Part shown: piece after piece, positions 7,461 to 54,043 of the stretch | How the letters are laid out: every line of letters begins with the position of its first letter | Position numbering within the stretch: the first letter of the stretch is position 1 | Origin: Natrialba swarupiae | GTDB taxonomy: Archaea > Halobacteriota > Halobacteria > Halobacteriales > Natrialbaceae | NCBI RefSeq assembly: GCF_008245225.1 | Contig: NZ_VTAW01000008.1 | Coordinates: 62,001-126,000, forward strand | Direction: 5' to 3' | Length of the DNA stretch: 64,000 bases | Made by a program: the position numbers and the translations under genes | The notes under the pieces: generated by a model | Database searches by the model: none | What the model saw: the letters and a program-made list of their open reading frames with translations, nothing else | What the model was told of the DNA's origin: nothing

Positions 7461-7861
7461 AATTGCCGAATTCTCTCGAGTGCATCGCCCGATAGCGCGT
7501 GCTGTGTCGGTCCGTAAGAACGGGACCGAGACATCCTCGAACAACGACGGTCCAGTGGTCTCACCGGCGACGAGTTCCGACAGTTTCTGAGCCCCGCCGA
7601 AACGCCGTCCGAGAGCCCCTAGAACAGGGAACGATCAGCTAGCCCCAGCCAGGTATAAACCACATATCGAGATATAGAAAACGGTGAGTTGCCACTGAGT
7701 AAAGTCGAACAGGGTGATTTCTACGAACGTACCGCAACGAACGGGATCGCACCGGCCGTCGACGGGTTCGACTCGAGAAATGCATTCGGGACGGCCCGAA
7801 CCGAGCCGAACGGACCACTCCCCCGAACGTTATACGACCGACGAAGGAAATGTAACCGTTG
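7461..7861. other. Intergenic stretch, only a promoter recognised
   Basis: This gap of about 400 bases has no convincing gene. An A/T-rich part (7645-7690) includes tataaacc and cgagatatag. The TATA-like ttatac at 7830-7835 sits 29 bases before the DUF2339 start. Frames running through the gap lack haloarchaeal codon use. Confidence 0.5.
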
Positions 7862-9709
7862 ATGAACGACGACGAACTCCGTCGCGAGGTCGAACGACTT
7901 CGCAACGAGGTCGACGCCCTCCATCGTCGGCTCGAGGCGGTCGAGTCGGAACCACCGTCCGAGTCCGGCGAAAGTGACGGCGTCGACGGCCCGGACGAAC
8001 AAACTGCCACCGGGGAGATCGAGACAACAGAAGCCGAATCAGACGATCCGTCAGCGTCGCCGGACAGTGCGGTGACGAAGTCGACCGGCGGCGAGACGCT
8101 CAGCGACCGGCTGGCAGCCGACCGGGACTGGGAACTCGCGCTCGGGGTTCGCTGGCTCGGGCTCGTCGGCGCGCTCGCGCTCGTCGTCGGCGTCGTCTTC
8201 TTCGTTCGCCTCGCGATCGAGATCGGGCTGCTCGGACCGGGCGGACGAGTTGCACTCGGTACGCTCACCGGCGTCGGGTTGCTTGCAGGTGGCCGCTTCG
8301 CGGCCACCCGACAGGGATACCGTCGCTGGGGACGCATCGCCGCAGGGACCGGGCTGGCGATCGCCTACTTCAGCGTTTACGCCGCCTACGGCTTCGAGAG
8401 CTATCGCGACGCGATCGGAACACCGCTGTGGGCAGCCCTCGCCGCGCTGACGGCGCTCGTTGCGGTCGCAGCGATCGTTTCGGTCCGCGACCGAGCCCCG
8501 TTCGTCGTCGGCGAGGCCTTCTTGCTCGGCTACGTGACTGCCACGCTGAGTACCGACGCCGCTACTGTCGTCCTGACCCCAGCGTACGTCCTCTTGCTCG
8601 GCGGGGGGATCGTCGCAATCGCGACGGTCCGACCTTGGGGTCGGCTCCTCAGCGCCAGCACGTTCGCCACATACGGCGTCCTGTTGTTGTGGCTCGTCGA
8701 TCTCGAGCCACCCGCCACCGCCATCGGTGTGGCCGGCGTCGCCGCCTTCGCTCTCTTCTTGGTCGGGGCGTACGTGCTCCGCCGGTCGGATGTCGACCCC
8801 GAACTCGAGTCCACGCACAGCCGGATCCATCGCGCCCGGTTGGCCGTCACCACCGTCGCCAACGCCGGTTTCGCGACGCTGTTTCTCGAGATCGCTCTCC
8901 GGGAAGGGTTTCCCGAGGTAGCGATCGACGGGGTCGGTGCGATCGCGGTCGCCCTCGCGCTCGCCGCGACCTACGTCGTGACGGACCGCGCCCCGGTTCG
9001 ACGCGACGGAGCGGCGGCCGCGGGGTCCGTCGCCTTCCTCGCCGGCGGGGTCGCGATGGCCGTCGGAACGTTCGCGACCACCGTCGGCGCACTTGCCGTG
9101 ATCTGTGGCGCAGTGATCGTTTCGAGAATCGCCGACGCGCCGGCGTTTCGGGTCGGCGCCCACGTCGTCGCGGGGGCGCTCGTCCTGAAACTGCTCACCG
9201 TCGACGCGACGGATCTCCCGGCGTTCGATCCCACCGAGCCGATGGCGACGCTTTTCGGTCGTCCCGTTGCGTTCGCGCTCGCGACCGGCGCGTTCTACGC
9301 GCTCGCGTGGTGGTACTCACGAACCGACGTGCTGACCGATCTCGAGCGTCGGTTCCTGCCCGCGACGGTCGCGAACTACGCGATCGTTGCGACGGGACTC
9401 GGCGTGATCGTCTTCGCCCTCGAGCTATCGGGGCTCGGCGTGTCGGTGGCGTGGATACTGTTCGGCTCCGTCCTCCTCGGAATCGGACTGGCGACCGACG
9501 TTCGGGGCGTCCGCGCGCTCGGAATTGCCGTCCTGGGACTCGCCACCGCGAAGGTGTTTCTCTTCGACACGCGGGATCTCGACACCGTCGCCCGGACGCT
9601 CTCGTTTCTCGTCCTCGGGGCCGTGCTGTTGATCGCCTCCTACGTCTACGCGCGGTCGCGGGGCGACCTCGAGATCGGTCTCGAGTTGCCGGAACGCCGG
9701 GAGGAGTAG
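7862..9709 (+). CDS. DUF2339-family polytopic membrane protein
   Basis: This is a 615-residue protein. A cytoplasmic N-terminal coiled coil (DELRREVERLRNEVDALHRR) and an acidic linker are followed by LGVRWLGLVGALALVVGVVF, the family's first membrane segment. Many further hydrophobic helices run to near the C-terminus, in Ala/Val/Leu-rich blocks. DUF2339 proteins are widespread large membrane proteins without an assigned function. ATG 7862 was chosen over TTG 7859. A TATA-like ttatac lies 29 bases upstream. The stop is one base from the stop of the convergent SDR gene. Confidence 0.88.
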   Translation: MNDDELRREVERLRNEVDALHRRLEAVESEPPSESGESDGVDGPDEQTATGEIETTEAESDDPSASPDSAVTKSTGGETLSDRLAADRDWELALGVRWLGLVGALALVVGVVFFVRLAIEIGLLGPGGRVALGTLTGVGLLAGGRFAATRQGYRRWGRIAAGTGLAIAYFSVYAAYGFESYRDAIGTPLWAALAALTALVAVAAIVSVRDRAPFVVGEAFLLGYVTATLSTDAATVVLTPAYVLLLGGGIVAIATVRPWGRLLSASTFATYGVLLLWLVDLEPPATAIGVAGVAAFALFLVGAYVLRRSDVDPELESTHSRIHRARLAVTTVANAGFATLFLEIALREGFPEVAIDGVGAIAVALALAATYVVTDRAPVRRDGAAAAGSVAFLAGGVAMAVGTFATTVGALAVICGAVIVSRIADAPAFRVGAHVVAGALVLKLLTVDATDLPAFDPTEPMATLFGRPVAFALATGAFYALAWWYSRTDVLTDLERRFLPATVANYAIVATGLGVIVFALELSGLGVSVAWILFGSVLLGIGLATDVRGVRALGIAVLGLATAKVFLFDTRDLDTVARTLSFLVLGAVLLIASYVYARSRGDLEIGLELPERREE

Positions 9710-9710
9710 C

Positions 9711-10409
9711 TCACCGGCTTGCACGTCGCCACGCCTTCAGGTCGACGACGGCGCCGTCGATCGAGGACGGATCGGCCTCGGTCGCCGCCCAGACGAACAT
9801 CGGCGCGACGGTCTCGGGGTCGCGTCCGGTTCCGTCCGTCAGCTCCGTCGCGACCTGTCCGGGATCGAGACAGCCCACGGTCGCGTCGGTATCGGCGGCG
9901 AACCCCCGGACGATCGCCTCGGCGGCGGCCTTCGAGACGGCGTACGATCCGTATCCCGGCCGGCCCTCGCGTGCGACGGCACCCGTCGGAACGAGGACCC
10001 GTGCACCGTCGTTTAAGTGTGCGAGCGCTTCCCGGACGGTCGCGAAGACGCCGCGCGCGTTCGTCCGCCAGTGGTCGTCGATAGAGGAGTACGACTCTTC
10101 GTCCGTCGGCGTCTCGCCCGGATCGCCGTGATAGACGCCGGCGGCAGCGACGACGACATCGATCCCGGACCCGTCTCCCGCTTTCGACGCAACCTCGACG
10201 AGGCGTTCGACGTCGAACTCGTCGCGAACGTCCGTTCGAACGCCCGCCGCGTTCCCGCCGGTTTCCTCGAGTGCCTCGACCGTCCGCTCGAGCGCCTCGC
10301 CGTCTCGAGCGCCGACGACGACGGTTGCACCCTCGGTCGCGAACGCGCCCGCGACGGCGCGGCCGATGCCTCGGGTCCCACCGGTGACGACGGCAGTTCG
10401 TCCGTTCAT
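9711..10409 (-). CDS. Short-chain dehydrogenase/reductase (SDR)
   Basis: This 232-residue classical SDR has the nucleotide-binding motif TGGTRGIGRAV, with GARDGE at the end of the second strand. VAAAGVYHG is the NNAG-like motif, and the catalytic YxxxK lies in YGSYAVSKAAAE, with a preceding Ser/Thr (VPTGAV). The substrate is unknown. The gene is divergent from the carotenoid cluster with a 315-base gap, so a link to carotenoids is possible but unsupported. The ATG at 10409 gives MNGRTAVVTGG directly. Confidence 0.9.
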   Translation of the reverse strand: MNGRTAVVTGGTRGIGRAVAGAFATEGATVVVGARDGEALERTVEALEETGGNAAGVRTDVRDEFDVERLVEVASKAGDGSGIDVVVAAAGVYHGDPGETPTDEESYSSIDDHWRTNARGVFATVREALAHLNDGARVLVPTGAVAREGRPGYGSYAVSKAAAEAIVRGFAADTDATVGCLDPGQVATELTDGTGRDPETVAPMFVWAATEADPSSIDGAVVDLKAWRRASR

Positions 10410-10724
10410 AACGCTCGTACGACCGCGAGCATCAAGGAACCACCTGTGATCGAAGCCGACGTGGACGATCGATTCCGGTGCGAGCCGATTGGCGTCCCGA
10501 ACGACCCAGCCGTCGACGGCTCGCGACGGGCTCGAGAACGAGCGGTACGGAGCACGGCCGGCAAACCACAGGCCATTCGCCATCGGATCACCAGTGACTG
10601 ACGGCAACCCGGACGAAACAGACCGTCCCGGACGAAGCGGACGACGCGAATCCGAGCCGTGAATCGCCGACACCCTACATTCGTGTGAAACAGATTTATC
10701 ACCGTACATATGGTCACTCGAGAT
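10410..10724. other. Divergent promoter region, SDR / carotenoid cluster
   Basis: This 315-base gap holds the TATA element of crtD (tttatc, 10695-10700). Nothing else is recognised; the remainder reads as ordinary high-GC spacer. Confidence 0.5.
10695..10700 (+). promoter_or_regulatory. TATA element of the crtD-lyeJ-cruF operon
   Basis: The sequence tttatc is centred about 28 bases before ATG 10725 but only 13 before ATG 10710, so it points to 10725 as the leaderless start. Confidence 0.5.
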
Positions 10725-12266
10725 ATGCAATCGCTGGCCGACGAGTCCGTCGTCGTGATCGGAGCCGGAATCGGGGGACTCTCGACGGCGTGTTACCTCG
10801 CTGACGCGGGTGCCGACGTTCGCGTCGTCGAGAAAAACGAGCAACTCGGCGGCCGGGCGAGTCGCCTCGAGCGCGACGGCTTCCGGTTCGACATGGGGCC
10901 ATCGTGGTATCTGATGCCCGACGTCTTCGAGCGCTTTTTCGCCGACTTCGACCGGACGCCGAGTGAGTACTACGAGCTGACTCACCTGGATCCTCACTAC
11001 CGGATTTTCTTCAAGGACGGTGACGGACGTGGAGTTTCGGACGGATCGAACGAGTCGGAAAACGCCGAGTACGTCGACATCACCCCCGATCTCGAGCGAA
11101 CGAAGGAGCTGTTCGAGGCGTACGAACCGGGTGCGGGTGAGAGGCTAGAACGGTACCTCGAGACGTCCCGGGAGAACTACGAGGTGGGGATGAAACACTT
11201 CGTCTACGAGGACCGGTCTCGACTGCGGGACTACGTCGACCTCGACGTCGCCCGCCACGCGAGGGGGTTGACGCTGCTCGGCTCGATGCAGGGCCACGTC
11301 GAGAACTACTTCGACCATCCACGGCTTCAACAGATCATGCAGTACACGCTGGTGTTTCTCGGCGGTTCGCCGTCGAACACGCCGGCGCTGTATAACCTGA
11401 TGAGTCACGTCGACTTCAACCTCGGCGTCTGGTATCCCGACGGCGGGATCGGTGCGGTGATCGACGCCGTGGCAGCGCTCGGCGGCGAACTGGGCGTCGA
11501 GTACGAGACCGGTCGACCGGTGAGTGAGATCAAGGGCCGGGAAGGTGCGTTCCTCCTCGAGACACCTGACGGACCGATTCGGGCGGATCTGGTCGTCAGC
11601 AACGCCGACTACGCTCACACCGAACGCGAGTTGCTCACGCCGGAACGGCGAGGCTACGACGCCGACTACTGGGAGTCCCGGACGTACGCCCCCTCTGCAT
11701 TCTTGCTCTATCTGGGCGTCGAGGGCGAGGTCGACGAACTCGCCCACCACACGCTCGTCCTCCCCGCGGAGTGGGAGGACCACTTCGATCGGATCTTCGA
11801 GGAACCGGCGTGGCCCGAGGATCCGGCGTACTACCTCTGCGTTCCTTCCGAGACGGACGACTCCGTCGCGCCGGACGGCCACAGCGCCCTGTTCGTCCTC
11901 GTCCCGATCGCACCCGGACTCGAGGACACTCCGGAGATTCGCGACCGGTATCGCGAGAAGATTCTCGCGGACATCGCCGAGAACACCGGTGCCGACCTCC
12001 GCGACCGGATCGTTCTCGAGGAGCGATTTTGCATCGAGGAGTTCGCCGACCGCTACAACAGCTTCCAGGGGACGGCACTTGGACTGGCGCACACGCTCCG
12101 ACAGACGTCGCTGTTCCGCCCGCCACACCGCTCGGAGGCGGTCGACGGACTCTACTTCGTCGGCGGCGACACCACTCCCGGAATCGGGATGCCGATGTGT
12201 CTCATCAGCGGCGAGTTGACCGCCGAGGCGGTGCTCGAGGATTACGGTCGGCAGGACCGGCGGTGA
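10725..12266 (+). CDS. crtD: Carotenoid 3,4-desaturase, CrtI/CrtD family
   Basis: This 513-residue FAD-dependent carotenoid desaturase has the dinucleotide motif VVVIGAGIGGLSTACYLADA, then GGRASR and RFDMGPSWYLMP. The C-terminal YFVGGDTTPGIGMPMCLISG motif is typical of CrtI enzymes. In haloarchaea the order desaturase-elongase-hydratase is that of crtD-lyeJ-cruF described in Haloarcula japonica. There CrtD introduces the 3,4 double bond after lycopene elongation. The assignment as CrtD rather than phytoene desaturase CrtI rests mainly on this gene order. ATG 10710 is an alternative start. LyeJ begins 9 bases downstream. Confidence 0.88.
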   Translation: MQSLADESVVVIGAGIGGLSTACYLADAGADVRVVEKNEQLGGRASRLERDGFRFDMGPSWYLMPDVFERFFADFDRTPSEYYELTHLDPHYRIFFKDGDGRGVSDGSNESENAEYVDITPDLERTKELFEAYEPGAGERLERYLETSRENYEVGMKHFVYEDRSRLRDYVDLDVARHARGLTLLGSMQGHVENYFDHPRLQQIMQYTLVFLGGSPSNTPALYNLMSHVDFNLGVWYPDGGIGAVIDAVAALGGELGVEYETGRPVSEIKGREGAFLLETPDGPIRADLVVSNADYAHTERELLTPERRGYDADYWESRTYAPSAFLLYLGVEGEVDELAHHTLVLPAEWEDHFDRIFEEPAWPEDPAYYLCVPSETDDSVAPDGHSALFVLVPIAPGLEDTPEIRDRYREKILADIAENTGADLRDRIVLEERFCIEEFADRYNSFQGTALGLAHTLRQTSLFRPPHRSEAVDGLYFVGGDTTPGIGMPMCLISGELTAEAVLEDYGRQDRR

Positions 12267-12275
12267 CGAACGATC

Positions 12276-13145
12276 GTGTCGAACCCGGAATCGACGGAAC
12301 GACCGGCGACGCTCGAGGCGCTCTCGTACCTGCTGGTGCTCTCGCGGCCGCGCTTTTGGCTCTATCTCGCGGGGCCGGTACTCGTCGGTGTCGCGTACGG
12401 CGCTGAGACGGTGAGTGAGCTGGGTTCGCCGGCCGGGATCGCGCTCGTTGCGTACTTCCTGCTCCCGGCGAACGTCTACCTCTACGGGGTAAACGACGTC
12501 TACGACCGCGGGATCGACGCGACAAACCCGAAAAAAGACGGTCGCGAGACGCGGTATCGCGGCCAGCGGTACGTCCCGGTCGCTGTCGTCGTCTGCGGGG
12601 CGCTTGCGCTTCCGGTCGCTGCCATCGTCCCGCGGGTGGCCTGGCCGTGGATCGGCACGTTTCTCGTCCTCGGTGCGGCCTACAGCGCGCCGCCGACCCG
12701 GTTCAAGACGACCCCGTTCCTGGATTCGCTCTCGAACGGGCTCTACGTCGTTCCGGGCGCGGCGGCCTACGCGGCGGTCGCCGGCGTCCAGCCACCTCTA
12801 CTGGCCGTCCTGGGAGGCTGGCTCTGGGCGATGGGAATGCACACGTTCTCGGCGATCCCTGACATCGAACCCGACCGCAAGGCGGGTATCCGGACGACCG
12901 CGACGCTCCTCGGGGAACGCCGGACCTACGCCTACTGCGGCGCGTGCTGGCTCGCGAGCGCCGGTGCGTTCGCGCTTCTCGACCCGCGGTTCGGGGCAGT
13001 GCTACTCGTCTACCCGGTCCTCGTGGTGGCCATCACCGCCTCGAGCGTCGCCGTCGACCGAGCCTACTGGTGGTTTCCGGCGATCAACACCGTCGTCGGC
13101 ACGGTACTGACACTGGGCGGCCTGTGGGGGATGACGTATGGATAA
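12276..13145 (+). CDS. lyeJ: Lycopene elongase/hydratase, UbiA prenyltransferase family
   Basis: This 289-residue integral membrane prenyltransferase adds C5 isoprenoid units to lycopene on the way to C50 bacterioruberin. The first Asp-rich motif is NDVYDRGIDATNPKK, and the second is DIEPDRKAGIRTTATLLGE. About eight hydrophobic helices alternate with these loops. It is the middle gene of the carotenoid operon. The GTG start at 12276 follows crtD by 9 bases, and its stop overlaps the cruF start by 8 bases, indicating translational coupling. Confidence 0.93.
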   Translation: MSNPESTERPATLEALSYLLVLSRPRFWLYLAGPVLVGVAYGAETVSELGSPAGIALVAYFLLPANVYLYGVNDVYDRGIDATNPKKDGRETRYRGQRYVPVAVVVCGALALPVAAIVPRVAWPWIGTFLVLGAAYSAPPTRFKTTPFLDSLSNGLYVVPGAAAYAAVAGVQPPLLAVLGGWLWAMGMHTFSAIPDIEPDRKAGIRTTATLLGERRTYAYCGACWLASAGAFALLDPRFGAVLLVYPVLVVAITASSVAVDRAYWWFPAINTVVGTVLTLGGLWGMTYG

Positions 13146-14001
13146 CCGAGTCTCGGGCGTTCGCGACGGGATCGACTCGAGGGCGGCCGTCCAGCGTCGC
13201 CTCGAGGAGATCGTTCGGGAGAACCGCTTTACCATCGCGGTCATCTTTCCGTTCGTCGGCGCGGTGACGCTCGTCGCGAGCGCGGAGGGACTGTTGCCAC
13301 CGGCACTCGAGTACAACCCGCTGTTGATCCTCTTCGGGACGGCCGTCATGCGCTCGCCGCTGATCGTCGGTTTGCTTCCGCGGATCGGGTGGTGGGCGCT
13401 CGGCTATCTCGGTGTTCTCACCGCCTACACGTACGTGATCGAGGTCGTCGGTGTGCGGACCGACTGGCCCTACGGCGCCTTCGAGTACACGATCCAACTG
13501 GGTCCGATGCTGTTCGGCGAGGTGCCCCTCGCGCTCCCGCTGTTTTTCATCCCGCTGGTCCTGAACGCGTACCTGCTGACGCTGTTGGTGCTCGGTCGCT
13601 GGAGCGAGCGCATTCTGGTTCGGGTTCCGGTCGCGATCGTCGCCGTCGTCGCCATCGACCTCGTTCTCGACCCCGCAGCGGTGGCGATCGGCTTCTGGGC
13701 GTTCGTTCCACCCGGCGTCTACTACGGCGTCCCGGTCTCGAACTACGTCGGCTGGGTGATCTCGGGGACCGTCGCCGTCGTCCTCGTCGACCTCGCGTTC
13801 GACCGCGAGGCGGTACTCGAGCGCGTTCGCGACTGCGAGTTCGTCCTCGACGATCTGGTGAGCTTCGTCTTGCTCTGGGGGACGATCAACCTCCTGTACG
13901 GCAACTGGGTGGCGGCGGCCGTCGCCGGCGCGTTCTGTCTCGGCCTGTTCAGGACGGACCGCTACGACCTCGAGATGGTGCGGACGGCACTCCCCGGATG
14001 A
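13138..14001 (+). CDS. cruF: Bisanhydrobacterioruberin hydratase, CruF family
   Basis: CruF hydrates the ends of bisanhydrobacterioruberin to give bacterioruberin. The 287-residue membrane protein has the family's conserved block TDWPYGAFEYTIQLGPMLFG and further polar loops (PPGVYYGVPVSNYVGW) between hydrophobic helices. It is last in the desaturase-elongase-hydratase operon, overlapping lyeJ by 8 bases. It converges with crtB across 67 bases. Confidence 0.92.
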   Translation: MDNRVSGVRDGIDSRAAVQRRLEEIVRENRFTIAVIFPFVGAVTLVASAEGLLPPALEYNPLLILFGTAVMRSPLIVGLLPRIGWWALGYLGVLTAYTYVIEVVGVRTDWPYGAFEYTIQLGPMLFGEVPLALPLFFIPLVLNAYLLTLLVLGRWSERILVRVPVAIVAVVAIDLVLDPAAVAIGFWAFVPPGVYYGVPVSNYVGWVISGTVAVVLVDLAFDREAVLERVRDCEFVLDDLVSFVLLWGTINLLYGNWVAAAVAGAFCLGLFRTDRYDLEMVRTALPG

Positions 14002-43355: not shown

Positions 43356-43808
43356 GTGGTCAAGGCAAAAAAGGTGCAATGTGGGGACGGAACGGTCTGG
43401 CTGTACAGGCTCGGTTCGGGACGGCAACGCCGACGACTTGCTCGTGACCGCCAAGAGGCGGGACGTCTCGGTTCTCGCGTCGCCCACGACCTCGATGGCA
43501 CACCCGACGGGAGCGAACTGATCGACACCCCCTTCGGCCGCCTGCGAGTACGCCGGCGTGGGCAAACTCGCCGTAACGGCCGGACCGCAAGCGGACACGT
43601 CGCGCTGCTCGCGGTTATCCACCGCCTCGTTAGCGACAGCAAGACCGTCGCGATGGCGCCGATGGCCGAGGCTGGCCGTCACACCCGGACCCATCACCCC
43701 TGTCCGCGGTTCGCGGTCATCTACGCACCCATCGATCCCACCAATGCAACCGCCTCCGGACAGTACGACCTCGAGACGCTCGCGGGGCTTGTGTCAGACC
43801 TCAGTTAG
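43356..43808 (+). pseudogene. Questionable gene or gene remnant (150 codons)
   Basis: The frame opens at GTG 43356 and ends at 43808, with good GC at third codon positions in its second half. The product (ending VIYAPIDPTNATASGQYDLE and a short tail) matches no family I know. Its first half is basic and low in acidic residues, unlike haloarchaeal proteins, while another frame reads better there (43279-43521). A frame shift within an ancestral gene would explain this; an unknown small gene or chance frame is equally possible. Confidence 0.3.
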
Positions 43809-43919: not shown

Positions 43920-44732
43920 ATGCAGACGACAGTAACAGATCTTCTCAAGTCGATTCGGCGTCCGGAGTACACGGGTGAGAACCGGTGTCTCCCTTGTACC
44001 ACCGTAAACGCGCTCATCGCCGTTGCTCTGGCAGGACTAATTTCAGTTTTTGCGAACCCGATAATCGGAGGAGTAACCTTCATCACCTTCGTGGCCGCGA
44101 TCTACCTCCGAGGATACCTCGTCCCGGGCACGCCAACGCTCACGAAGCGATACCTCCCCGACCGCGTCCACCGACTGTTCGACAGCCACGTCGAGGACAC
44201 TGAAACTGCCGTCGACGGGGAGGATGAGGACGACGTCGAATCCCTGCTCCGTGCTACTGGCGCCGTGATCGATTGCCCCGAAGCAGACGACCTGTGTCTC
44301 GAGACGACGTTCCAGATCGCCTGGCACGACCGAATCGCCGCGCTGGAAGACGAAGAGAAACGACTCGAGGCCCTGGCCGCGCGTCTCGACCTCGAGACGG
44401 CGGATCTGGCCCTCGAGGAATCGACTGGCGGGTACATCGCCCGGTACGAGAGCGATCGGATCGGCGTCTGGCCGTCCGAAGCGGCGTTTCTCGCCGACCT
44501 CGCGGGCGCGCCGACCCTGGACGAACACGGCTCTGGCTGGCAGGAACTAACGGCCGATGAACAGGGAGTCGTGTTGACTGGTCTTCGGGCGTTCCTCGAG
44601 AAATGTCCGACCTGCGGGGGCGAGATCGACGGCAACGAAGAGACCGTCGAGTCGTGTTGTTCGACGGCGATGCAAGCGACCGTCGAGTGTGGACGGTGCA
44701 GTGGAACACTCCTTCGAAGCACCTACCGATAG
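43920..44732 (+). CDS. Membrane protein with C-terminal zinc ribbon
   Basis: The protein has 270 residues. Two hydrophobic helices (about 30-65) sit after a Cys-containing N-terminus (GENRCLPCTTVN). A long acidic, Leu-rich soluble part follows, then a Cys cluster (EKCPTCGGEID, SCCSTAM, CGRCSGTLL) that looks like a zinc ribbon. Because it begins the block of TasA/DUF1102-type genes it may be a regulator or assembly factor there, but no known function is assigned. A GGAGGT ribosome binding site precedes the ATG. Confidence 0.75.
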   Translation: MQTTVTDLLKSIRRPEYTGENRCLPCTTVNALIAVALAGLISVFANPIIGGVTFITFVAAIYLRGYLVPGTPTLTKRYLPDRVHRLFDSHVEDTETAVDGEDEDDVESLLRATGAVIDCPEADDLCLETTFQIAWHDRIAALEDEEKRLEALAARLDLETADLALEESTGGYIARYESDRIGVWPSEAAFLADLAGAPTLDEHGSGWQELTADEQGVVLTGLRAFLEKCPTCGGEIDGNEETVESCCSTAMQATVECGRCSGTLLRSTYR

Positions 44733-44773
44733 TCCACCTCGGCGTTATGCCGTGGCAGGCCTCCGTGGAGGGA

Positions 44774-45856
44774 CTATTCGACTACGCCATGAAGGGCGAT
44801 TATGAGTTCGTCACCCTCACTAAGGTTCTCGCGGACATCATCGAGAGGTATGGTGTACTGCATCGCACCGGGGTCGTACTCGTCTGACGTATTTTTGTAG
44901 TCGAACGCACCGGGTGCGGCTTTGATTTGTCGGAGTCTGTCGGTATCCGTATCGACGTAGAGTTGGCTCTCGGTCAACGTGAACTCAGGGTCCATCTCGA
45001 TGTCGACGACGAGGTCGTCACCGTCGTCGGAGATTTCGACATCGCCAACGTCCGTTCCGGCGTTGAGGTTATTCCTACCTGCGCCCGCGTAGAACTCGGC
45101 GAGTACCGGGTCGGTGTCAGAACCCGAACTGATGTCGTAGGGCATGAACCAACCCCACTTGGAAATGTTGGTGAGGGAGTTTAGCCGGTTCTCGTCCGGA
45201 TCGGGCTCGTCGTTCAGGATCGCCCATGCGGTTTGCCCGCTCACTGGCGGTTCATCGACCGGACAGTCCTCGTCGGCGTGGATGACGATTTCGTCACCGA
45301 GATCGGAGAGGAGCTGCTCGCTGTCACTCAGTCCTTTCGTGTTCGTATGGATCCCGATGCAGATACATTCGCCGACACCGAGGAAGAAAGCGTTCTCCGA
45401 GCCGAGAATCGACTGCTCCCTGTTGTCGCCGACGTAGAAATCGACCCGGAGATCACCGTCGTACTCCGAGTAATCACCCTCGAGTTCACCGTCATCTACT
45501 TTCGGCCAGTTTTCATCGTCGATCCAGACACAGATGTCCTGCTTTCCCTGATTACAGATCTGGAAGACGTTGTCGAACCAGGTTCTCGAGTCCGAATTGA
45601 TCCCCTCTCCACCGGCGTCGGTGGGGTTCTCCGACGACATGTCGACCTCGAGGTGACCGCTCTCGTCGATGTTCGTATAACTCGCGTTCGGCGAGTCGGG
45701 ACAGCCGTCAAGGCCGAGATATGCGTGAGGATCCTTGGCGACCTCGATCTTCACCCGTCGTTGCGATTCGATCCGACTGAACGCGCCGGAACCGATGAGC
45801 ATGCTCGCACCGATGCCCGAGCCGCCCACGCCGGCTATGAAGGTACGTCGTTTCAT
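44774..45856 (-). CDS. DUF1102-type secreted subunit with bacterial-type beta-sandwich tail
   Basis: The 360-residue protein starts MKRRTFIAGVGGSGIGASML, a short signal with RR followed by GSGAFS. The DUF1102-type head (about 30-210) has AYLGLDGCPDSPNASY, TWFDNVFQICNQGKQD and VGECICIG. The second half has LTESQLYVD, AAPGAFDYKN, YTIPLDDV and LIIALHGVVE, the landmarks of an extracellular bacterial beta-sandwich domain (LTETHLYV...PGxFxY...YTIPL...AAHAVV). It lies with a signal peptidase and other head-bearing genes. A gtgtatacac palindrome is upstream. Confidence 0.82.
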   Translation of the reverse strand: MKRRTFIAGVGGSGIGASMLIGSGAFSRIESQRRVKIEVAKDPHAYLGLDGCPDSPNASYTNIDESGHLEVDMSSENPTDAGGEGINSDSRTWFDNVFQICNQGKQDICVWIDDENWPKVDDGELEGDYSEYDGDLRVDFYVGDNREQSILGSENAFFLGVGECICIGIHTNTKGLSDSEQLLSDLGDEIVIHADEDCPVDEPPVSGQTAWAILNDEPDPDENRLNSLTNISKWGWFMPYDISSGSDTDPVLAEFYAGAGRNNLNAGTDVGDVEISDDGDDLVVDIEMDPEFTLTESQLYVDTDTDRLRQIKAAPGAFDYKNTSDEYDPGAMQYTIPLDDVRENLSEGDELIIALHGVVE

Positions 45857-45926
45857 GTGTGGTTTACTAGCGCAGCCCGCAAGATTGGACCGTGCGTACA
45901 CCTGAAGCGACGAGAACATCCGGTAT

Positions 45927-45936
45927 GTGTATACAC
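45927..45936. promoter_or_regulatory. gtgtatacac palindrome upstream of a DUF1102 gene
   Basis: The same 10-base palindrome occurs at 47163-47172. It is 71-80 bases before the start at 45856 and contains a TATA-like core, so it may be a shared promoter or operator of the fibre-like genes. Confidence 0.5.
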
Positions 45937-46123
45937 CGCGTGCAGTCACGGAAGAGAACGCGTACAAGAATTTTAGGTTGCGACCAACGAATCGAAGTAA
46001 GGTCGTATCCTCGAGAACGTGGTTCGTTCTAGAAACTGAGTCTACCGATTATCGGTCGGAGTGGTACAGTTCAAACGGTCTACGACGGGGAGAGTGGCAG
46101 TTGAACAGTCGCGCTCTTCGCGC

Positions 46124-46798
46124 TCACTCGTCCGTCTCCGCGTCGGCCTGGTCGATCACTTCGGAACTGGATTCGTCCGTCGCGTTGATCTCGTCCGTTG
46201 ATTCGGTCTCCGACTCGCGGTCTGTGTCAGGCTCCGTACTCGATTCCGCTTGCGCGTCGGATTCCTCTCCACCGTCGGTATCAGTGTTAGGCCCTGGGGG
46301 AGACGGGCAGCTCTCTTTCGTGGCTTCGGGGTTACTGAAACCGTCGTCGTACTCGAGTTTGGTCCCCGTTTCGCCCTTGCAGGGCGACGGTGGACAGCGG
46401 TTGGAGTCGTCCCCTTCGACCCGGTTAGGCCAGTCAGGAGAGATCAGAACGCCACCGTCCTCTTCAGCCATGATTGCCGTCCCAGACGTCGCACCTGCGG
46501 TGTCGAACCGGTACCATTCCTGTTCTCCTTTGAGAATTACTTCGTCCACGGGGTCGTCGGTCGACCACTCGATCTCGACCGGTTCGCCCTCGTCGTTGGC
46601 GGTCAGAACCTCGATGCTCTCGATTCCGACCTCACCACAGAACGCGACGAAACTGATGCCCGTCAGGTCCATGACCGGAGCCACCTCGAGTTTCACGCGA
46701 CGCTGTGCTTCGATTCGAGAGACGCTCTCTGTTCCAACGAGTGCACCTGCAGTAATGCTTCCAGCACCGATCGCAGAGAGGAACGTTCTTCGTTTCAT
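46124..46798 (-). CDS. Short DUF1102-related secreted protein with acidic tail
   Basis: The 224-residue protein starts MKRRTFLSAIGAGSITAGAL and continues with VGTESVSRIEAQRRVKLEVA, clearly related to the head-bearing proteins. The remainder lacks the AYLGL, ICNQGKQ and ECICIG landmarks. It has other Cys (AFCGEVG, NRCPPSPCKGE, ESCPSPPG) and ends in a very acidic Ser/Thr/Asp/Glu-rich tail. It may be a divergent minor subunit or a decayed one. It is not a standard family member, so the call rests on the signal region and the neighbourhood. Confidence 0.7.
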   Translation of the reverse strand: MKRRTFLSAIGAGSITAGALVGTESVSRIEAQRRVKLEVAPVMDLTGISFVAFCGEVGIESIEVLTANDEGEPVEIEWSTDDPVDEVILKGEQEWYRFDTAGATSGTAIMAEEDGGVLISPDWPNRVEGDDSNRCPPSPCKGETGTKLEYDDGFSNPEATKESCPSPPGPNTDTDGGEESDAQAESSTEPDTDRESETESTDEINATDESSSEVIDQADAETDE

Positions 46799-47271
46799 CG
46801 TCTCACCGCGCCCGAGAACCGACGCCCTCGTGTCGGTGCATCCAGTTTCATACCAGGACGAGCGATACGTGAAGTCTTTTGTATTGACTGCATGTCGAAC
46901 TGACAGGTCGTCCAAAACGATTTTCAGAACCTCCGTACCCTCATTGATCTGTGAAAAATCAGCACCGTTACCACTCACCCAGTAGTCGATGCCGGCTGCA
47001 CGTCTCCCGACAACTCGCCGAGCTGTCTAACGGTCGGTGGATAGAAGCGCTGGTGGGAAACAACATTTCTGTATAAGAGAACGTAATGAGTTCGAATCTC
47101 TCCCGGCTGCAGTTAGTTGTGCGATAGAGACCTGCACCCACTGTTTGTCGAACCTCCTGTCAGTGTATACACAAGGTACATACCAGCATCACGATCAACC
47201 GACGCGTTCGCCTCCCACGGGCCGCCGCGAGGGCAGGCCAGAACGGAGGGACGAACGCGAGGATGATACAT
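46799..47271. other. A/T-rich divergent spacer between two DUF1102-type genes
   Basis: This 473-base gap holds the gtgtatacac palindrome (47163-47172). A tRNA-like T-arm motif near 47089-47110 was examined and rejected. A Shine-Dalgarno-like gagg precedes ATG 47272. No gene is seen. Confidence 0.5.
47163..47172. promoter_or_regulatory. gtgtatacac palindrome upstream of the beta-helix DUF1102 gene
   Basis: It is identical to the palindrome at 45927-45936. It lies about 100-109 bases before ATG 47272 and has a TATA-like core. Confidence 0.5.
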
Positions 47272-48630
47272 ATGGATCGACGAAAGTTCCTGTACGGTAT
47301 CGGTGGCAGTGCGATCGGCGGCAGTGCACTCATCGGTTCCGGCGCGTTCAGTCGGATCGAATCGCAACGGCGGGTGAAGATCGAGGTGGCCGGGGATCCC
47401 GACGCCTACCTGGGGTTGGATCGCTGTCCAACCAGCCCAAACAACAGCTACGTAGACTTCGACGACAGTGGTCACCTCGCTGTCGAGATGTCGGAGGACA
47501 ATCCGACTGAGGAAGGTGGACAGGGGGTTAACTCGGACTCATTTACCTGGTTCGACGACGTTTTCCAGATCTGTAATCAGGGCAAGCAGCCGGTTTCCGT
47601 CTGGATCGAAGCTGAGGCGAGTGAGGAAGCTGATAAATATTTCGACTCCGACAACTACGGAGAATATGGACCAGTCACCTTCTACCTCGGGGACGACGAC
47701 GAGGAGATACTGAGCGAGGACAATCCCCAACTACTTCAGGTCGGTGAGTGCCTGTGTGTCGGTATCCGAGTAGTCACGAAGGGACTCAAGGAAGGCCAGC
47801 AGCTCGTCGATGACGATGAGATCGTCATCCATGCCGACGCAGATCAGGAGCTCGCAACCGGTCCGGTGACGAACCAAACCCAGGGAACGACTCACGACGA
47901 TGTCCACGATGCGATTGATGCTGCCAAGGATAACGATACGATCAAAGTATACGAAGATCAGTCGGGGCTCGTTGAGGTCGATAAGCAGTTGAACATCGTC
48001 GGTGTCGGAATGCCCACGCTAGAAGACGGTGTGAATATCACCGCCGATAACGTCCGGGTGAGTTCGTTTAACATTCTCGATAGTGGGGACGCACTCTGGG
48101 CAGAGTTCGCTGTTCGATTGGAACCAGGCGTGTCTGGAATTACAATCGAAGATAATTCGATCGAGTCTGACTGGTATGCAATCGCAGACGAAAGTAGTGC
48201 TCAAACGACGAGTGACGTCACGATTGAAAATAACGACATCTTCGGGACTGCCGAATCGGGAGTTCAGGTCGTGTACATCAACGGAGAGCAAAGTGGTCCA
48301 CCAAGCGCTGAAGATGCAGAGAACATCAACTTGATTGATAACACAATCGGCGCCAACGACCTAGATGGTGGTCTCCTGGTAGGACTCGAGGCCGACGGAG
48401 GCGAAGTCAGCGGGAACACTTTCGACGATCCGCCAACCGACTACGGCCACCTCGAGCTATGGGGTCCGAACCTGGAGGTCGAAGATAACGACTTCTTCGG
48501 TGATAACCTCGGCACGAACGCGTTCTACGTGCGTAACTCGGACAATACGTACACCCTGAGCGAGATTCTCGGGGCCAACACCTTCGACCCCACTGCGGAG
48601 GTCGTCGGCGACGACATCCGCCCAGAGTAA
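47272..48630 (+). CDS. DUF1102-type secreted subunit fused to a beta-helix domain
   Basis: The 452-residue protein starts MDRRKFLYGIGGSAIGGSAL and GSGAFSRIESQRRVKIEV. The head (about 30-205) has AYLGLDRCPTSPNNSY, TWFDDVFQICNQGKQPV and LQVGECLCVGIRV. From about 210 the sequence repeats a pattern like right-handed parallel beta-helices (VRVSSFNILDSGD, ITIEDNSIESD, VTIENNDIFGTAE, INLIDNTIGAND, VEDNDFFGDN). The N-term of this part (THDDVHDAIDAAKDNDTIKV) resembles PbH1/NosD-type starts. The beta-helix part has lower GC (27 of 60 bases at 48181-48240 versus 36 of 60 at 47281-47340). Confidence 0.85.
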   Translation: MDRRKFLYGIGGSAIGGSALIGSGAFSRIESQRRVKIEVAGDPDAYLGLDRCPTSPNNSYVDFDDSGHLAVEMSEDNPTEEGGQGVNSDSFTWFDDVFQICNQGKQPVSVWIEAEASEEADKYFDSDNYGEYGPVTFYLGDDDEEILSEDNPQLLQVGECLCVGIRVVTKGLKEGQQLVDDDEIVIHADADQELATGPVTNQTQGTTHDDVHDAIDAAKDNDTIKVYEDQSGLVEVDKQLNIVGVGMPTLEDGVNITADNVRVSSFNILDSGDALWAEFAVRLEPGVSGITIEDNSIESDWYAIADESSAQTTSDVTIENNDIFGTAESGVQVVYINGEQSGPPSAEDAENINLIDNTIGANDLDGGLLVGLEADGGEVSGNTFDDPPTDYGHLELWGPNLEVEDNDFFGDNLGTNAFYVRNSDNTYTLSEILGANTFDPTAEVVGDDIRPE

Positions 48631-48958
48631 CCGATTTTCCAGCGGCGAATCCCTTTTATTTTCTCGAGTCTCGTGGAACCGGAGAACGATATCGTCGGGA
48701 ACGTCTATTCCCTGCACAGACTCGATACCTCCTGGGCAGGCGAACGACCTGCCGAGCCTGCTCGAGTTCGCCAGTGGTGAATGGACGAAATACAGCCTCG
48801 AGTGACGAAACGGCTGTTTAACAGGTTTGGACTAGCCACCGTTCCGGCGGCATATACCAAAGTCGGATCCGTCGATATACTGAGCACATGGCCCCGACGA
48901 CACCGGTAACCGGCGCACAACTTCCTGGGACCCGAATACTACCGAAACCCTGACCGTC
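48631..48958. other. Spacer with T-rich possible terminator and TATA-like sites
   Basis: A T-rich run (48651-48663, cccttttattttct) follows the beta-helix gene and may terminate its transcript. TATA-like catatacc (near 48850) and gatatact (near 48875) may start the next gene with a leader of roughly 60-80 bases. No gene is seen. Confidence 0.5.
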
Positions 48959-49597
48959 ATGAATCGACGAACACTCCTCCTCGCGGTCGGCGGCGGCGGG
49001 ATCGGGGCGAGTGCGCTGATCGGCTCCGGTGCATTCACGGCCGCTGGCTCACAGCGAGGAACGACGATCGAGGTCGCCGGCGATCCCGACGCCTATCTCG
49101 GCCTCGAGCCTTGCCCCGACTCGCCGAACGCGAGTTACACCCGGTTCGACGACAGCGGGCACCTCGGGATCGAGATGTCGCCCTCGAACCCGACCATCGG
49201 GAAGGGCAAGCGGGGAACAGGGCTGGGCGTCAACTCGGACTCGTTCACGTACTTCCACGACGTGTTCCAGGTCTGCAATCAGGGCAAACAACCCGTAAAG
49301 ATCTGGATCGAAGTGCACGCTCGAGAGCCCGCGGGCCGACTCAAGACCGACGACGAGTACAAGGAGTACGCCGGCGAGGATCGCGTCGTGTTCTACGGGA
49401 GCGACGACCCGGACCGTCGGGTCGATCAGGAGACGACACCGATCGGACTCCCCGTTGGGGAATGTACGTGTATCGGCCTCCGGACGATGACCAAGGGACT
49501 CGAGGCAGGCGACCGACTGCTGAAAGACGACGAGATCGTCATCCAGGCCGACACGGTCGACGAGCTGCCAGCCAAGAGAGGGAAAAAGAACGAATAA
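48959..49597 (+). CDS. DUF1102-type secreted protein, head only (possible major fibre subunit)
   Basis: The 212-residue protein starts MNRRTLLLAVGGGGIGASAL and has GSGAFTAAGSQRGTTIEV. The rest is only the head: AYLGLEPCPDSPNASY, FTYFHDVFQVCNQGKQPV and LPVGECTCIGLRT, then DDEIVIQADTVDELP. With no added C-terminal domain it could be the repeating subunit of a fibre, by analogy with TasA/AbpA, which are held together by N-terminal donor strands. This role is an inference from similarity of type and locus, not from identity. Confidence 0.83.
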   Translation: MNRRTLLLAVGGGGIGASALIGSGAFTAAGSQRGTTIEVAGDPDAYLGLEPCPDSPNASYTRFDDSGHLGIEMSPSNPTIGKGKRGTGLGVNSDSFTYFHDVFQVCNQGKQPVKIWIEVHAREPAGRLKTDDEYKEYAGEDRVVFYGSDDPDRRVDQETTPIGLPVGECTCIGLRTMTKGLEAGDRLLKDDEIVIQADTVDELPAKRGKKNE

Positions 49598-49651
49598 CGC
49601 CGCTGCGGTCCGCGACGGACCGCTTTCGGTAACCACTCCGCGCGAGCAGCG

Positions 49652-50878
49652 TCAGTCGTCGTCCGATTCGCTCGAGTCGTTCCGCTCCGGCTCCGACTCG
49701 ATTTCGGCGTCAGCCTTAGCATCGCTATCGCTCCCCGAGTCGAACTCGATTTCGTCGTCAGCCCCGTTGCGTTCGCCATCGACGAACGTCTCGCCGAACT
49801 CGTCCGCGTTCGGATCCGGAACTTCCTCGAACTCGTAGACGTACAACAGGTCGCCGTCGACGACGTAGTAGGCTGTCCCGCCTTCCTCTGTCTCGTCTTC
49901 GATCACGCGCCGATCACAATCGATCGCGACGTCGACCAAATCCTCGAGCGAGGCGACCGTCACGCGGGATCGCTCCCTGACCTCGTCTGGGAGCGTGCCG
50001 GCCGAGACCCACTCGTCGAACTCCTCGCGTTCGCCCGTGACCCGGAGTCGCTCGAGTTCCGCCTCGGAGGGTGCGAGGGTGCCGTTCACTTTCCGCTTCG
50101 AGAGGACGCCGATCGCCGCGATCGAGCCGAGCAGCAGAGCCATGCCGAACATGGGGGTCGAGCCGCTCTCGGCCGTCGGATCGACCTCTTCGACGCGCTC
50201 CTGCGTATATCGCTCGGCGACCGGTCCCTCCACGCTGTAGGTATCGCCATCGGGTTCGATCAGGAGCTCGTACCGATCCGTATGCTGAACCGGTTCGCCC
50301 TCGATCGTCCCCTCCATCGTGACCTCGGCGACGACGACCGCCTCGGTAGTGCCGGGCGAATCGCCCAGGCTCGATTCGGTCCGTTCGATCTCCTCCTCGA
50401 GCGCGGGAACGTCGATTGCGAACGAACTCCCAACCCGGTCGCCCGGTTCGACGCCCGTCGCAGTACTCTCGTTCAGCGGCTCGCTCGTCGACCAGTACTC
50501 GGTATCGTCGTCAACTGCGCGTATCTCTCGCTCGAGGTCGAGGTCGACGGTGACGTCGCCGTTCTGGGCGTTGTACTGGTGCGTGAACTCACCGTCGACT
50601 TCGGGCGCGATCTGGGTGAAGTAGACCTCCTGTCGCGGTAGCTCCTCACCGACCTCGAAGACTTCGTTTTCGGACTGAACCGTCGCGTAGTGATCGAAGC
50701 CACCGGTCGTCGACCACGTGTCGACCGTCCGCTGGTCGGTGTCGGCGGTGGTGTCGGCATTGGCCGCGAGAACGGTCCACCCCCCGAACAGGGCCAGTAC
50801 CAGCAACACGATCACGACCGGGCCGAACCATCGGTCGATCCCGGCTCGCACGCGAGCCAGTCGTCGTTCAGTGTTCAT
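49652..50878 (-). CDS. DUF5305-type membrane protein
   Basis: The protein has 408 residues. An N-terminal membrane helix (FGPVVIVLLVLALFGGWTVL) is followed by a large extracellular beta-rich part (about 40-245), then a second helix (STPMFGMALLLGSIAAIGVL) and a cytoplasmic acidic tail. The fold and position next to a signal peptidase match DUF5305 proteins of TasA/SipW-type loci. It may anchor or help assemble the fibre. The start at 50878 is ATG; a TTG six bases upstream is less likely. It is on the same strand as, and downstream of, the signal peptidase gene. Confidence 0.75.
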   Translation of the reverse strand: MNTERRLARVRAGIDRWFGPVVIVLLVLALFGGWTVLAANADTTADTDQRTVDTWSTTGGFDHYATVQSENEVFEVGEELPRQEVYFTQIAPEVDGEFTHQYNAQNGDVTVDLDLEREIRAVDDDTEYWSTSEPLNESTATGVEPGDRVGSSFAIDVPALEEEIERTESSLGDSPGTTEAVVVAEVTMEGTIEGEPVQHTDRYELLIEPDGDTYSVEGPVAERYTQERVEEVDPTAESGSTPMFGMALLLGSIAAIGVLSKRKVNGTLAPSEAELERLRVTGEREEFDEWVSAGTLPDEVRERSRVTVASLEDLVDVAIDCDRRVIEDETEEGGTAYYVVDGDLLYVYEFEEVPDPNADEFGETFVDGERNGADDEIEFDSGSDSDAKADAEIESEPERNDSSESDDD

Positions 50879-50930
50879 CGGCAATACCCCCCCTTCCGTG
50901 TGAATCGGTTTCGAGTGTTGTGTTCGCTAC

Positions 50931-52109
50931 TCATGATCGGAGAATCCTCCGTACGAAGCCGCGTTTGTGATCGGTGCGCTGTCTCGAGCGCGTCCGTATC
51001 GTCCCGGTTCCGAGCAGTATCGCAAACGGGAGGACGAACGCGCCGACGATGACGCCGGTTGTAGCGCCCATCGCTAACCACGGATGGATCGCGTGTAAGC
51101 CGGCGATGACGGGCGTCGGGAGCACCGCGAAGTAGCGGTACTCGGCGAACGAACGCAAGTAATACCCCGTCTCCGGCGGCGCGGTAACCGCCACGGTCTC
51201 GTTCACCGAGTCACCTCGGTGTAACGTCTGTGCGTCGCTATCTACCGCGACGCCGTCGCTCGCTGGCTCGATGATCGTCGTCACGGGCAATACGCCGTCG
51301 TTCCGAACTTCGTAGGTGTGTTCCTCGGTATCACCCGTGGGAATGACGTGAGGCGCATCCGACTCGAACTCGGCACTGACGATGCCGGCTTCCGTCGTAT
51401 CCGACATTGCGACCATCGTCCCGGCCGACACGAGACAGAGCAACACCACCATACCGAACACGGCCAGCCGCGCGTCGAAGACGCCGCGGCGCGACCGCGT
51501 TCGCGTTCGATCCCGGTCGCTCGCTCGCGACTCGAGGATCGCAGTGAGAGCGAGAACCCCGAGTCCGAATACGAGCAGGAGCGTGGCGAGTCCCTCCGAG
51601 CCGAGCAGCGTCCCGGTCCCGAGCGTCGTGGCCAGCTCGAGTTGGATCGTTTCCAGCCCGCTCTGAACGCCCATCACCGCAGTTCCCAGGTGCGGAATCG
51701 TGACGACCTCACCGTTGATCTGCAACGCCTTCGCGGCGATCTGCCCGTCGGTAACCGGCGGTTCGGCTCCGTCCTGGTCAGTGACGACGTTCGCGTCCCC
51801 GCGTGTCAGGTAGCCGTGGTCGGTCTCGTCGACGACGCGATGGGTCGTGAGTTCGCCGCCCTCGATCTCCTGTGGTTCGTAGACGACGACGTCACCTGTT
51901 TCGACGGGGGCCGCGACCGCGTCCGGGATGACAACGAACCCATCGCCGCGGTCGATTGTCGGCTCCATACTATCCGATTCAGCGTAACTGATCAGGATCG
52001 GAACGCCGAGGAGATGTCCGGCAACGAGTGCTGCGAGAACGAGCCCCGCGATGACCATTGCTGCTCGTCCGACTGCTGTACCCCCGGTCAACGGCTGTGG
52101 GTTCCCCAT
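50931..52109 (-). CDS. ER-type (SipW/Sec11-like) signal peptidase with C-terminal extension
   Basis: The 392-residue protein has a membrane helix (about 15-40), then ESDSMEPTI with the catalytic Ser47, TTHRVVDE with His90 (in place of the bacterial Lys) and LTRGDANVV with Asp105. A second helix and an Arg-rich loop lead to an extra domain (about 245-360, beta-rich) and a last helix. Such Ser-His peptidases process TasA-type precursors. The start at 52109 (MGNPQPL) has a GGAGGA ribosome binding site upstream. Its likely substrates are the four nearby secreted proteins. Confidence 0.9.
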   Translation of the reverse strand: MGNPQPLTGGTAVGRAAMVIAGLVLAALVAGHLLGVPILISYAESDSMEPTIDRGDGFVVIPDAVAAPVETGDVVVYEPQEIEGGELTTHRVVDETDHGYLTRGDANVVTDQDGAEPPVTDGQIAAKALQINGEVVTIPHLGTAVMGVQSGLETIQLELATTLGTGTLLGSEGLATLLLVFGLGVLALTAILESRASDRDRTRTRSRRGVFDARLAVFGMVVLLCLVSAGTMVAMSDTTEAGIVSAEFESDAPHVIPTGDTEEHTYEVRNDGVLPVTTIIEPASDGVAVDSDAQTLHRGDSVNETVAVTAPPETGYYLRSFAEYRYFAVLPTPVIAGLHAIHPWLAMGATTGVIVGAFVLPFAILLGTGTIRTRSRQRTDHKRGFVRRILRS

Positions 52110-52357
52110 TGGCGATCCTCCGTGGGCGTCTGCGTCGCCGGCTGAGACGGAGCCCGGCACGCAGCACACGGTCATCCCATCAGGAAATTCACGTTTTGCT
52201 ATGAATCGCCTATACTGCCTTCACAAACGTTAATTGGTGTCTACCGCGGATGAGCGCCACCGGTTCGGAGATCATCGTGGTTGTTCGGCCAGGCCGATCT
52301 GGTTACAGGTGACAATTTACAGCACTCAAAGACTGTCTGACAGAGCGTAGTGTGTCC

Positions 52358-53002
52358 ATGTTTAACACGATACGGAATGACCGATCCGACGCGCAGAGGA
52401 TCGCCTCTGGGGGGGATAGTGTGAGCCATACCGAAGCCGCTTTCGAGACGAGGGGGAACGGGTCCGAAACCGACGAGATCACGCGGGATCAGACGTTTAC
52501 GATGCTGAGCAACCGCCGTCGTCGATGGGTCATTCATTACCTGAAACGACGCGACGGCGGGCCAGTCAGCCTCCGAACGTTGGTCAATACGATATCCGCC
52601 TGGGAACACGGCGTCGAGGTCGAGAAACTGTCGTGGAAACAACGGAAGCGCGTCTACACGGCGCTTCGGCAATCACATCTGCCGAAGCTGGATGACGCAG
52701 GAGTGGTCGAATACGATTCGAACAGGGGCGAGATCGTGCTTACCGAGGAGGCCGAAAAACTCCAGCTCTACCTCGAGTACGTTCCCGAACGTGACATCCC
52801 CTGGCATCAGTACTATCTCGGCCTCGCGACGATCGCGACGGCACTGACCCTCGTTACCTGGCTTTCGCTTCCACCGGTGAGCGAACTTTCGGGACTGGCC
52901 CTGTCCAGTATCATCACGGCGATGATCGTCGTTTCGGCGATCACCCACGTCTACCACGCTCGGAATAGTCGACTTGGCAGTGCGGAAGAGCCCCCGCGGT
53001 AA
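52358..53002 (+). CDS. HTH regulator with two C-terminal membrane helices (DUF7344-like)
   Basis: The 214-residue protein has a winged-helix part at about 40-130 (TFTMLSNRRRRWVIHYLKRR, LSWKQRKRVYTALRQSHLPK, VEYDSNRGEIVLTEEAEKL), typical of haloarchaeal regulators I know as DUF7344. Two hydrophobic helices follow at about 150-195. A membrane-bound regulator at this point may sense the assembly state. GTG 52352 is an alternative start. It is divergent from the signal peptidase gene, with a 248-base gap. Confidence 0.8.
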   Translation: MFNTIRNDRSDAQRIASGGDSVSHTEAAFETRGNGSETDEITRDQTFTMLSNRRRRWVIHYLKRRDGGPVSLRTLVNTISAWEHGVEVEKLSWKQRKRVYTALRQSHLPKLDDAGVVEYDSNRGEIVLTEEAEKLQLYLEYVPERDIPWHQYYLGLATIATALTLVTWLSLPPVSELSGLALSSIITAMIVVSAITHVYHARNSRLGSAEEPPR

Positions 53003-53387: not shown

Positions 53388-53735
53388 GTGAGTGAGGAGA
53401 TCGACCTATCCACGGTGCTCTCGGTTCTCGACGACGAGTACGCACGGGAGATCCTCACCCACACGAGCGTCGAACCCATGTCTGCTAGTACCCTGAGCGA
53501 ACGGTGTGACGCCTCCCTGCCGACGATCTATCGACGACTGGATCGCCTCGAGGAGTGTCGACTCGTGACCGAAGAGACGGAGCTCGCGGCCGATGGTAAC
53601 CACTACAGCGTCTACAGTGCGAACCTTGATCGACTGGAGCTCAGCCTCGAGGACGGTGCGTTCGACCTCGAATTGACCTACCGTGAAGAGGACGTCGCCG
53701 ACAGGTTCACGAGGATGTGGGAGGGGATGCGATGA
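53388..53735 (+). CDS. Winged-helix transcriptional regulator
   Basis: The 115-residue protein starts at GTG 53388 (MSEEIDLSTVLSVLDDEYAR). The recognition segment is SASTLSERCDASLPTIYRRL, and the wing is VTEETELAADGNHYSVYSA. It resembles small ArsR/HTH_20-type regulators of haloarchaea. Its stop overlaps the next gene's start (ATGA), so it is co-translated with a small membrane protein, perhaps as a sensor-regulator pair. Confidence 0.83.
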   Translation: MSEEIDLSTVLSVLDDEYAREILTHTSVEPMSASTLSERCDASLPTIYRRLDRLEECRLVTEETELAADGNHYSVYSANLDRLELSLEDGAFDLELTYREEDVADRFTRMWEGMR

Positions 53736-54043
53736 CTACAAGTTCGGTCCGGATCGGCGAGACGAGCGTCTTCGAACTGTTCACCATCGCTAGCCTCTTT
53801 CTCGTCGCGCTCATGGGTGCGATCATCGCCTACCAGGCCTACCGTGGATACCGGCGCAACGACGCGACGTCCATGCTCTATCTCGCCCTCGGGCTGTTGT
53901 TGCTCACGGTCTGTCCGTTTCTCGTCAACGTCACGATCACGACGGTCACGAACGCGGACCATCTCGTCACGGTGTTCTTCGAGAACGTGAGTCGACTGCT
54001 CGGATTGGTCGCGATCATGTACTCGCTGTACGGACGTCACTGA
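53732..54043 (+). CDS. Small membrane protein coupled to the winged-helix regulator
   Basis: The 103-residue protein has three hydrophobic helices (about 12-36, 46-68, 78-100) and short charged loops (YRGYRRNDATSMLYLALGLL). The ATGA overlap with the regulator gene argues for functional coupling. Proteins of this kind next to a winged-helix gene recur in haloarchaea (perhaps those called DUF7521), with unknown function. Confidence 0.7.
   Translation: MTTSSVRIGETSVFELFTIASLFLVALMGAIIAYQAYRGYRRNDATSMLYLALGLLLLTVCPFLVNVTITTVTNADHLVTVFFENVSRLLGLVAIMYSLYGRH

Follow-up and report, generated by a model that had tools for sequence, protein, structure and literature searches.

A haloarchaeal locus related to the Tat-fimbriae as a probable donor-strand surface fiber module of a new subtype

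The window analyzed here, a stretch of 64,000 nucleotides from Natrialba swarupiae, harbors eight genes that we term A to H (Table 1). All of them were found at the coordinates that an earlier note on this DNA had given, and its description of the main proteins holds. The motifs RR, GSGAFS/T, AYLGL, CNQGKQ and GEC-C-G are all located in B, D and E. The same signal region is present in C, which carries the variant GTESVSRIEAQRRVKLEVA of the signal-region motif and has no head. The two arginines are residues 3-4 in B, C, D and E, and read from the sequence the signals of these four proteins are of the twin-arginine type. The ER-type Ser-His peptidase was recovered in G, with S47, H90, D105 and D111 invariant in 38/38 full-length relatives. 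F is a DUF5305-type protein (1.4e-52), and the HTH regulator with membrane helices, H, belongs to DUF7344 (8e-30).

Table 1. Genes and palindromes of the locus; positions are those of the window.
Feature	Position	Strand	Description
A	43920..44732	+	zinc ribbon and membrane helices; boundary gene
B	44774..45856	-	Tat signal, donor-type strand, DUF1102/TafE-type head, C-terminal domain (~residues 206-360)
Palindrome GTGTATACAC	45927..45936		70 bp upstream of B
C	46124..46798	-	headless; Tat-type signal and donor-type strand SRIEAQRRVKLEVA joined straight to a domain
Palindrome GTGTATACAC	47163..47172		99 bp upstream of D
D	47272..48630	+	Tat signal, donor-type strand, head, right-handed beta-helix; candidate tip or adhesin
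E	48959..49597	+	head-only subunit, candidate pilin
F	49652..50878	-	DUF5305 membrane protein (PF17231, 178.7 bits, 1.4e-52); candidate assembly or anchor protein
G	50931..52109	-	Ser-His signal peptidase and second conserved extracytoplasmic domain; candidate dedicated peptidase for the heads
H	52352..53002	+	DUF7344 winged-helix regulator (PF24035, 103.5 bits, 8e-30), two likely C-terminal membrane helices

In a Pfam scan the heads of B (31.1 bits) and D (26.2 bits) lie above the gathering cut-off of DUF1102 (PF06510, 22.2 bits), and E sits right at it, with 22.1 bits at full length and 22.6 bits in the mature form. DUF1102 is the only Pfam model that recurs among 22 heads; the TasA/camelysin family model does not recur among them. 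The haloarchaeal Tat-fimbriae (tafi) go back to Galeva et al. (2025, iScience, doi 10.1016/j.isci.2025.111793; cited here via PMC12687288), and NCBIfam holds the models TafA, TafC, TafE and TafF. With the TafE model (NF052522, cut-off 155) B scores 63.5, D 62.2, E 48.8 and C 27.4 bits, all of which are below the cut-off. B, C, D and E also match the TafA model (NF052520, cut-off 190), but in the signal region only; the best of these matches reaches 32.8 bits, and the best in the whole genome is 44.8 bits. The TafC and TafF models have zero matches among the window proteins. In a tree of 86 signal-bearing proteins, many inner branches of which are weak, B, D and E group with heads from other loci and apart from TafA and TafE. 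One scan of genome contigs gave a single close locus, L018, and a scan of viral contigs for heads found none.

Behind the heads the proteins diverge. The beta-helix of D is matched by the Pfam Beta_helix model (3.2e-8). The C-terminal domain of B (44774-45286) has the motifs TAWA, WGW and AGAGRN, which are conserved in L018, and belongs to no Pfam family. From locus to locus the C-terminal extensions of the heads are unrelated and mostly without Pfam matches, and Pfam scans of head C-terminal domains gave nothing over the cut-off. In tafi, TafC contains a laminin-G domain of lectin-like type. We infer that variable domains for ligand binding or anchoring are exposed on these fibers.

The nearest known system is the Tat-fimbriae, with the solved pilus of Natrinema sp. 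J7-2 (PDB 9P0A). In a sequence search of the PDB, E matches the tafi pilin chain 9p0a_C with an E-value of 1.2e-5. Since the signal accounts for part of this match, the search was repeated with a signal-free profile. Built from 22 mature heads, this profile finds 9p0a_C at an E-value of 2.8e-8, and this is the only significant PDB match; the second one is at chance level (0.63) and was rejected. The fold was modeled as well, from an alignment of six sequences and with a mean pLDDT of 59.5 for the full-length and 67.0 for the mature form of E. AbpA, the bundling pilus of Pyrobaculum calidifontis, is a donor-strand pilin, and the thread of Sulfolobus acidocaldarius is a donor-strand filament. 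When the two models of E were compared by Foldseek with 350,542 chains, AbpA (7ueg) came out on top in both cases (prob 0.99), followed in second place by the tafi pilin (prob 0.93-0.94). High ranks were also reached by FimA variants and by the Sulfolobus thread. The TM-scores are low (0.37-0.46, and 0.37-0.43 for AbpA) and the model confidence is moderate, and hence the fold match counts as support by rank and by its agreement with the sequence search rather than as a confident superposition. By rank, the predicted fold of E is nearest to donor-strand pilins.

A second line of evidence comes from the N-terminus. When 85 proteins are aligned at GAF, the mature N-terminus reads S/T-x-V-E-A/S-x-R-x-V-x-V/I-x-V-A-x-D, with the arginine in 82/85 and the aspartate in 78/85 of the proteins and with alternating V/I/L. 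Variability climbs sharply beyond about 26 residues past GAF. Because RR and GAF had served to collect the proteins, solely the part behind GAF is counted as evidence here. The alternating hydrophobic pattern fits what a donor strand needs, and this makes the segment a candidate donor strand. Part of this conservation could instead reflect recognition of the segment by the peptidase. In this respect C is of particular value. By pairwise blastp, mature C shares 39% identity (E 6e-17) with the C-terminal domain of L047_8073, a protein that bears the C-type domain behind a complete head. The N-terminal strands of the two proteins are identical at 11/14 positions, and C has no head between strand and domain. 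Retention of the strand without a head of its own is best explained by its insertion into another subunit. It is conceivable, and we put it forward tentatively, that C is a headless donor-strand carrier that plugs the last open groove and thereby serves as an exchangeable unit for terminating the fiber or for displaying a domain. If true, domains would be mounted on donor-strand fibers either behind a head or on a bare strand.

The peptidase G scores 48.6 bits with TIGR02228 (cut-off 51.85) and 28.4 bits with the SipW model NF046067 (cut-off 190). Its second extracytoplasmic domain (approximately residues 236-352) is likewise conserved, with G259 in 38/38 and P331 and H342 in 37/38 relatives, and has no Pfam family match. 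This domain might assist assembly. The idea that it, or DUF5305, is a disguised head found no support in a profile comparison (probability <1%). Further archaeal-type peptidases exist in the genome; judged from its linkage, G is probably dedicated to this locus.

The linkage was counted in 61 haloarchaeal genomes, namely that of N. swarupiae and 60 relatives, which contain 82 G-type peptidases. A DUF5305 gene lies within 3 kb of 74/82 of these peptidases, where chance would give about 0.3%, and conversely 74/82 DUF5305 genes sit within 3 kb of a G-type peptidase. TafE-type heads are found within 10 kb of at least 70 of the 82 peptidases, compared with at most about 2% by chance. Peptidase, DUF5305 and head occur together in at least 44/61 genomes. 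Among the matches listed, 11/61 genomes have none of the three, and not one of the 61 has heads without the peptidase. In 14 control genomes, Haloferax volcanii being one of those named, the models for DUF5305, TafA and TafE gave no match. The earlier note had named co-occurrence no greater than chance as an argument against its proposal; the co-occurrence found is far above chance. Across 41 mapped loci the same order recurs, with a DUF7344 gene, usually divergent from at least one head, then the peptidase and then DUF5305, and a homolog of H is present in nearly every one. Since most of these loci were picked by their heads, the genome-wide count is the unbiased test.

Taken together, the region 44774-53002 is likely a donor-strand surface fiber module of the tafi type, with the fibers deduced from genes and predicted folds. 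While the tafi class itself is already known, the subtype at this locus is new. It shares with tafi the RR signal with a GTGAFS-type end, the mature N-terminal strand and a head homologous to the solved pilin. Its accessory genes are likewise those of a tafi locus, as can be seen at L040, where TafA, TafC, TafE and TafF proteins above the cut-off stand with the same peptidase, DUF5305 and DUF7344 genes. We set the subtype apart from tafi proper because TafA, TafC and TafF are absent, and because the heads stay under the TafE cut-off and group in a clade of their own, in which cysteines are conserved (CNQGK, GEC-C-G). Also different from tafi are the several heads whose C-terminal domains are unrelated, the presence of a strand protein that lacks a head, and the upstream palindrome.

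The earlier note had proposed a donor-strand fiber resembling AbpA, served by a Ser-His peptidase of its own that is comparable to SipW, and this is supported by the Foldseek ranks, by the sequence match to the tafi pilin and by the co-occurrence. AbpA (7UEG) remains the first structural match of E, but no sequence match to it was found and the identity in the structural alignment is 13%. The Sulfolobus acidocaldarius thread (7PNB; PMC9715654) is among the best structural matches of E, yet the match is weaker (prob 0.47-0.63) and again no sequence match was found. The parallel with Bacillus TasA and SipW that the note had drawn is supported as regards a probable fiber with a probably dedicated peptidase. 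Sec export and SipW-type processing very probably do not apply, the nearest known system being the Tat-fimbria. DUF1102 had been a family without described function, and our analysis suggests that DUF1102 proteins are fiber subunits.

The same genome contains a second tafi-like locus (L039, G000:C9:22000-41999, at about 7490-13927 and thus at about 30-36 kb of contig C9). This locus is closer to tafi: it has a TafE-like head with 123.6 bits, a peptidase, DUF5305 and DUF7344, and next to its regulator lies a protein in which a TafC-like N-terminal part is joined to a bactofilin domain.

Its presence bears on the question of which protein builds the fiber. The window heads might be TafE-like adapters or tips that decorate a fiber of a pilin encoded elsewhere, for instance at the C9 locus with its closer TafE-like head and its full set of accessory genes. 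E, D and B match TafE (48.8, 62.2 and 63.5 bits), and TafA in the signal region only. We consider this unlikely, given that every locus has its own peptidase and DUF5305 and that the window heads are homologous to the solved tafi pilin. A TafE-like score is also compatible with a pilin, since the tafi-type pilin L062, which is nearly identical to the solved tafi pilin across the aligned N-terminal part, scores TafE-like as well. E is a candidate pilin. The note's assignment of E as the main subunit and of B, C and D as tips or minor subunits stays a proposal, since the TafE model, which stands for an adapter, is matched by E, D and B alike.

Even less probable is that the products are separate secreted or surface-anchored beta-sandwich proteins, which share a signal and a processing enzyme and do not polymerize at all. 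Such an explanation would agree with the fact that no fiber has been seen for this subtype and that the C-terminal domains differ widely among loci. It is at odds with the homology to a solved pilin, with the alternating conserved N-terminal strand retained in headless C, and with gene neighbors that are the same as at the tafi locus. A fiber of the Bacillus TasA type, exported by Sec and processed by SipW, appears very improbable. TasA fibers are reported to form by donor-strand exchange (PMC9674648), and as in Bacillus subtilis a dedicated signal peptidase adjoins a subunit gene. G weakly matches the SipW model (28.4 bits), and AbpA, called TasA-like in the earlier note, is the top structural match. 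However, the signals are twin-arginine and not Sec signals, no TasA-family match was found and DUF1102 is the sole recurring Pfam model in the heads, the SipW score is far under the cut-off of 190, G has an extra domain, and the closest relative in sequence is tafi.

For the favored reading, a tafi-type donor-strand fiber, the following sequence of events can be envisaged. The regulator H would control the head genes, perhaps via the GTGTATACAC element. The subunits would leave the cell in a folded state through Tat, using their RR signals, and the signal would keep them anchored. G would then cut near GSGAF and free the N-terminal strand, and the freed strand would fill the open groove of the next head, giving rise to a chain of subunits. 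E, and possibly also D and B via their heads, would form or join the fiber, and the extra C-terminal domains of B and D would be exposed along its length or at its end. Having a donor strand but no head, C could be added at just one place, the final open groove, which its strand would fill; it would therefore cap or decorate one end of the fiber. At the membrane, F probably serves to anchor the fiber or to help in its assembly, as does the extra domain of G.

The analysis ties DUF1102, DUF5305 and the DUF7344 regulator to one fiber-building module, which is present in most of the haloarchaeal genomes of the sample. It is suggested that the published tafi are one subtype within a larger set. 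The locus also offers a pointer to how donor-strand fibers acquire different end domains, and the headless member C opens the donor-strand idea to direct testing.

The 4.2 Mb genome contains the palindrome GTGTATACAC just twice, each time within this locus. About 2 copies per genome are expected, as estimated from base composition, and therefore it is the placement and not the copy number that is unusual. Of 17 near-exact copies in 41 other loci, 8 are located no more than 150 bp upstream of a head, although such stretches make up just 1.5% of the sequence (binomial p 7e-11; 2/8 are from the close relative L018). It may serve H as an operator, or it may act as a promoter element.

The zinc-ribbon protein A, which the earlier note had counted among the neighbors of the heads, is present, while its membership in the system is doubtful. 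It belongs to a large family of haloarchaeal paralogs, which has 6 matches in this genome and occurs in 7/11 genomes that are free of the module. Among about 10 loci with window-type heads, A is carried by 7. We have rejected A as a core part because of its family in module-free genomes and because a paralog adjoins aroD elsewhere in the genome. Just upstream of A, at 43411-43805, aroD (3-dehydroquinate dehydratase) survives as a decayed fragment that is split over two frames and has one stop. On contig C45 of the same genome an aroD without internal stops adjoins another zinc-ribbon paralog, and in L047 aroD immediately precedes a zinc-ribbon gene. From this recurrent adjacency, A is probably an aroD-linked neighbor, a matter of synteny, and probably lies outside the fiber system. 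Beyond the other end of the locus, at 53388-54043, a small HTH gene overlaps the beginning of a gene for a DUF7521 membrane protein; this pair is probably unrelated.
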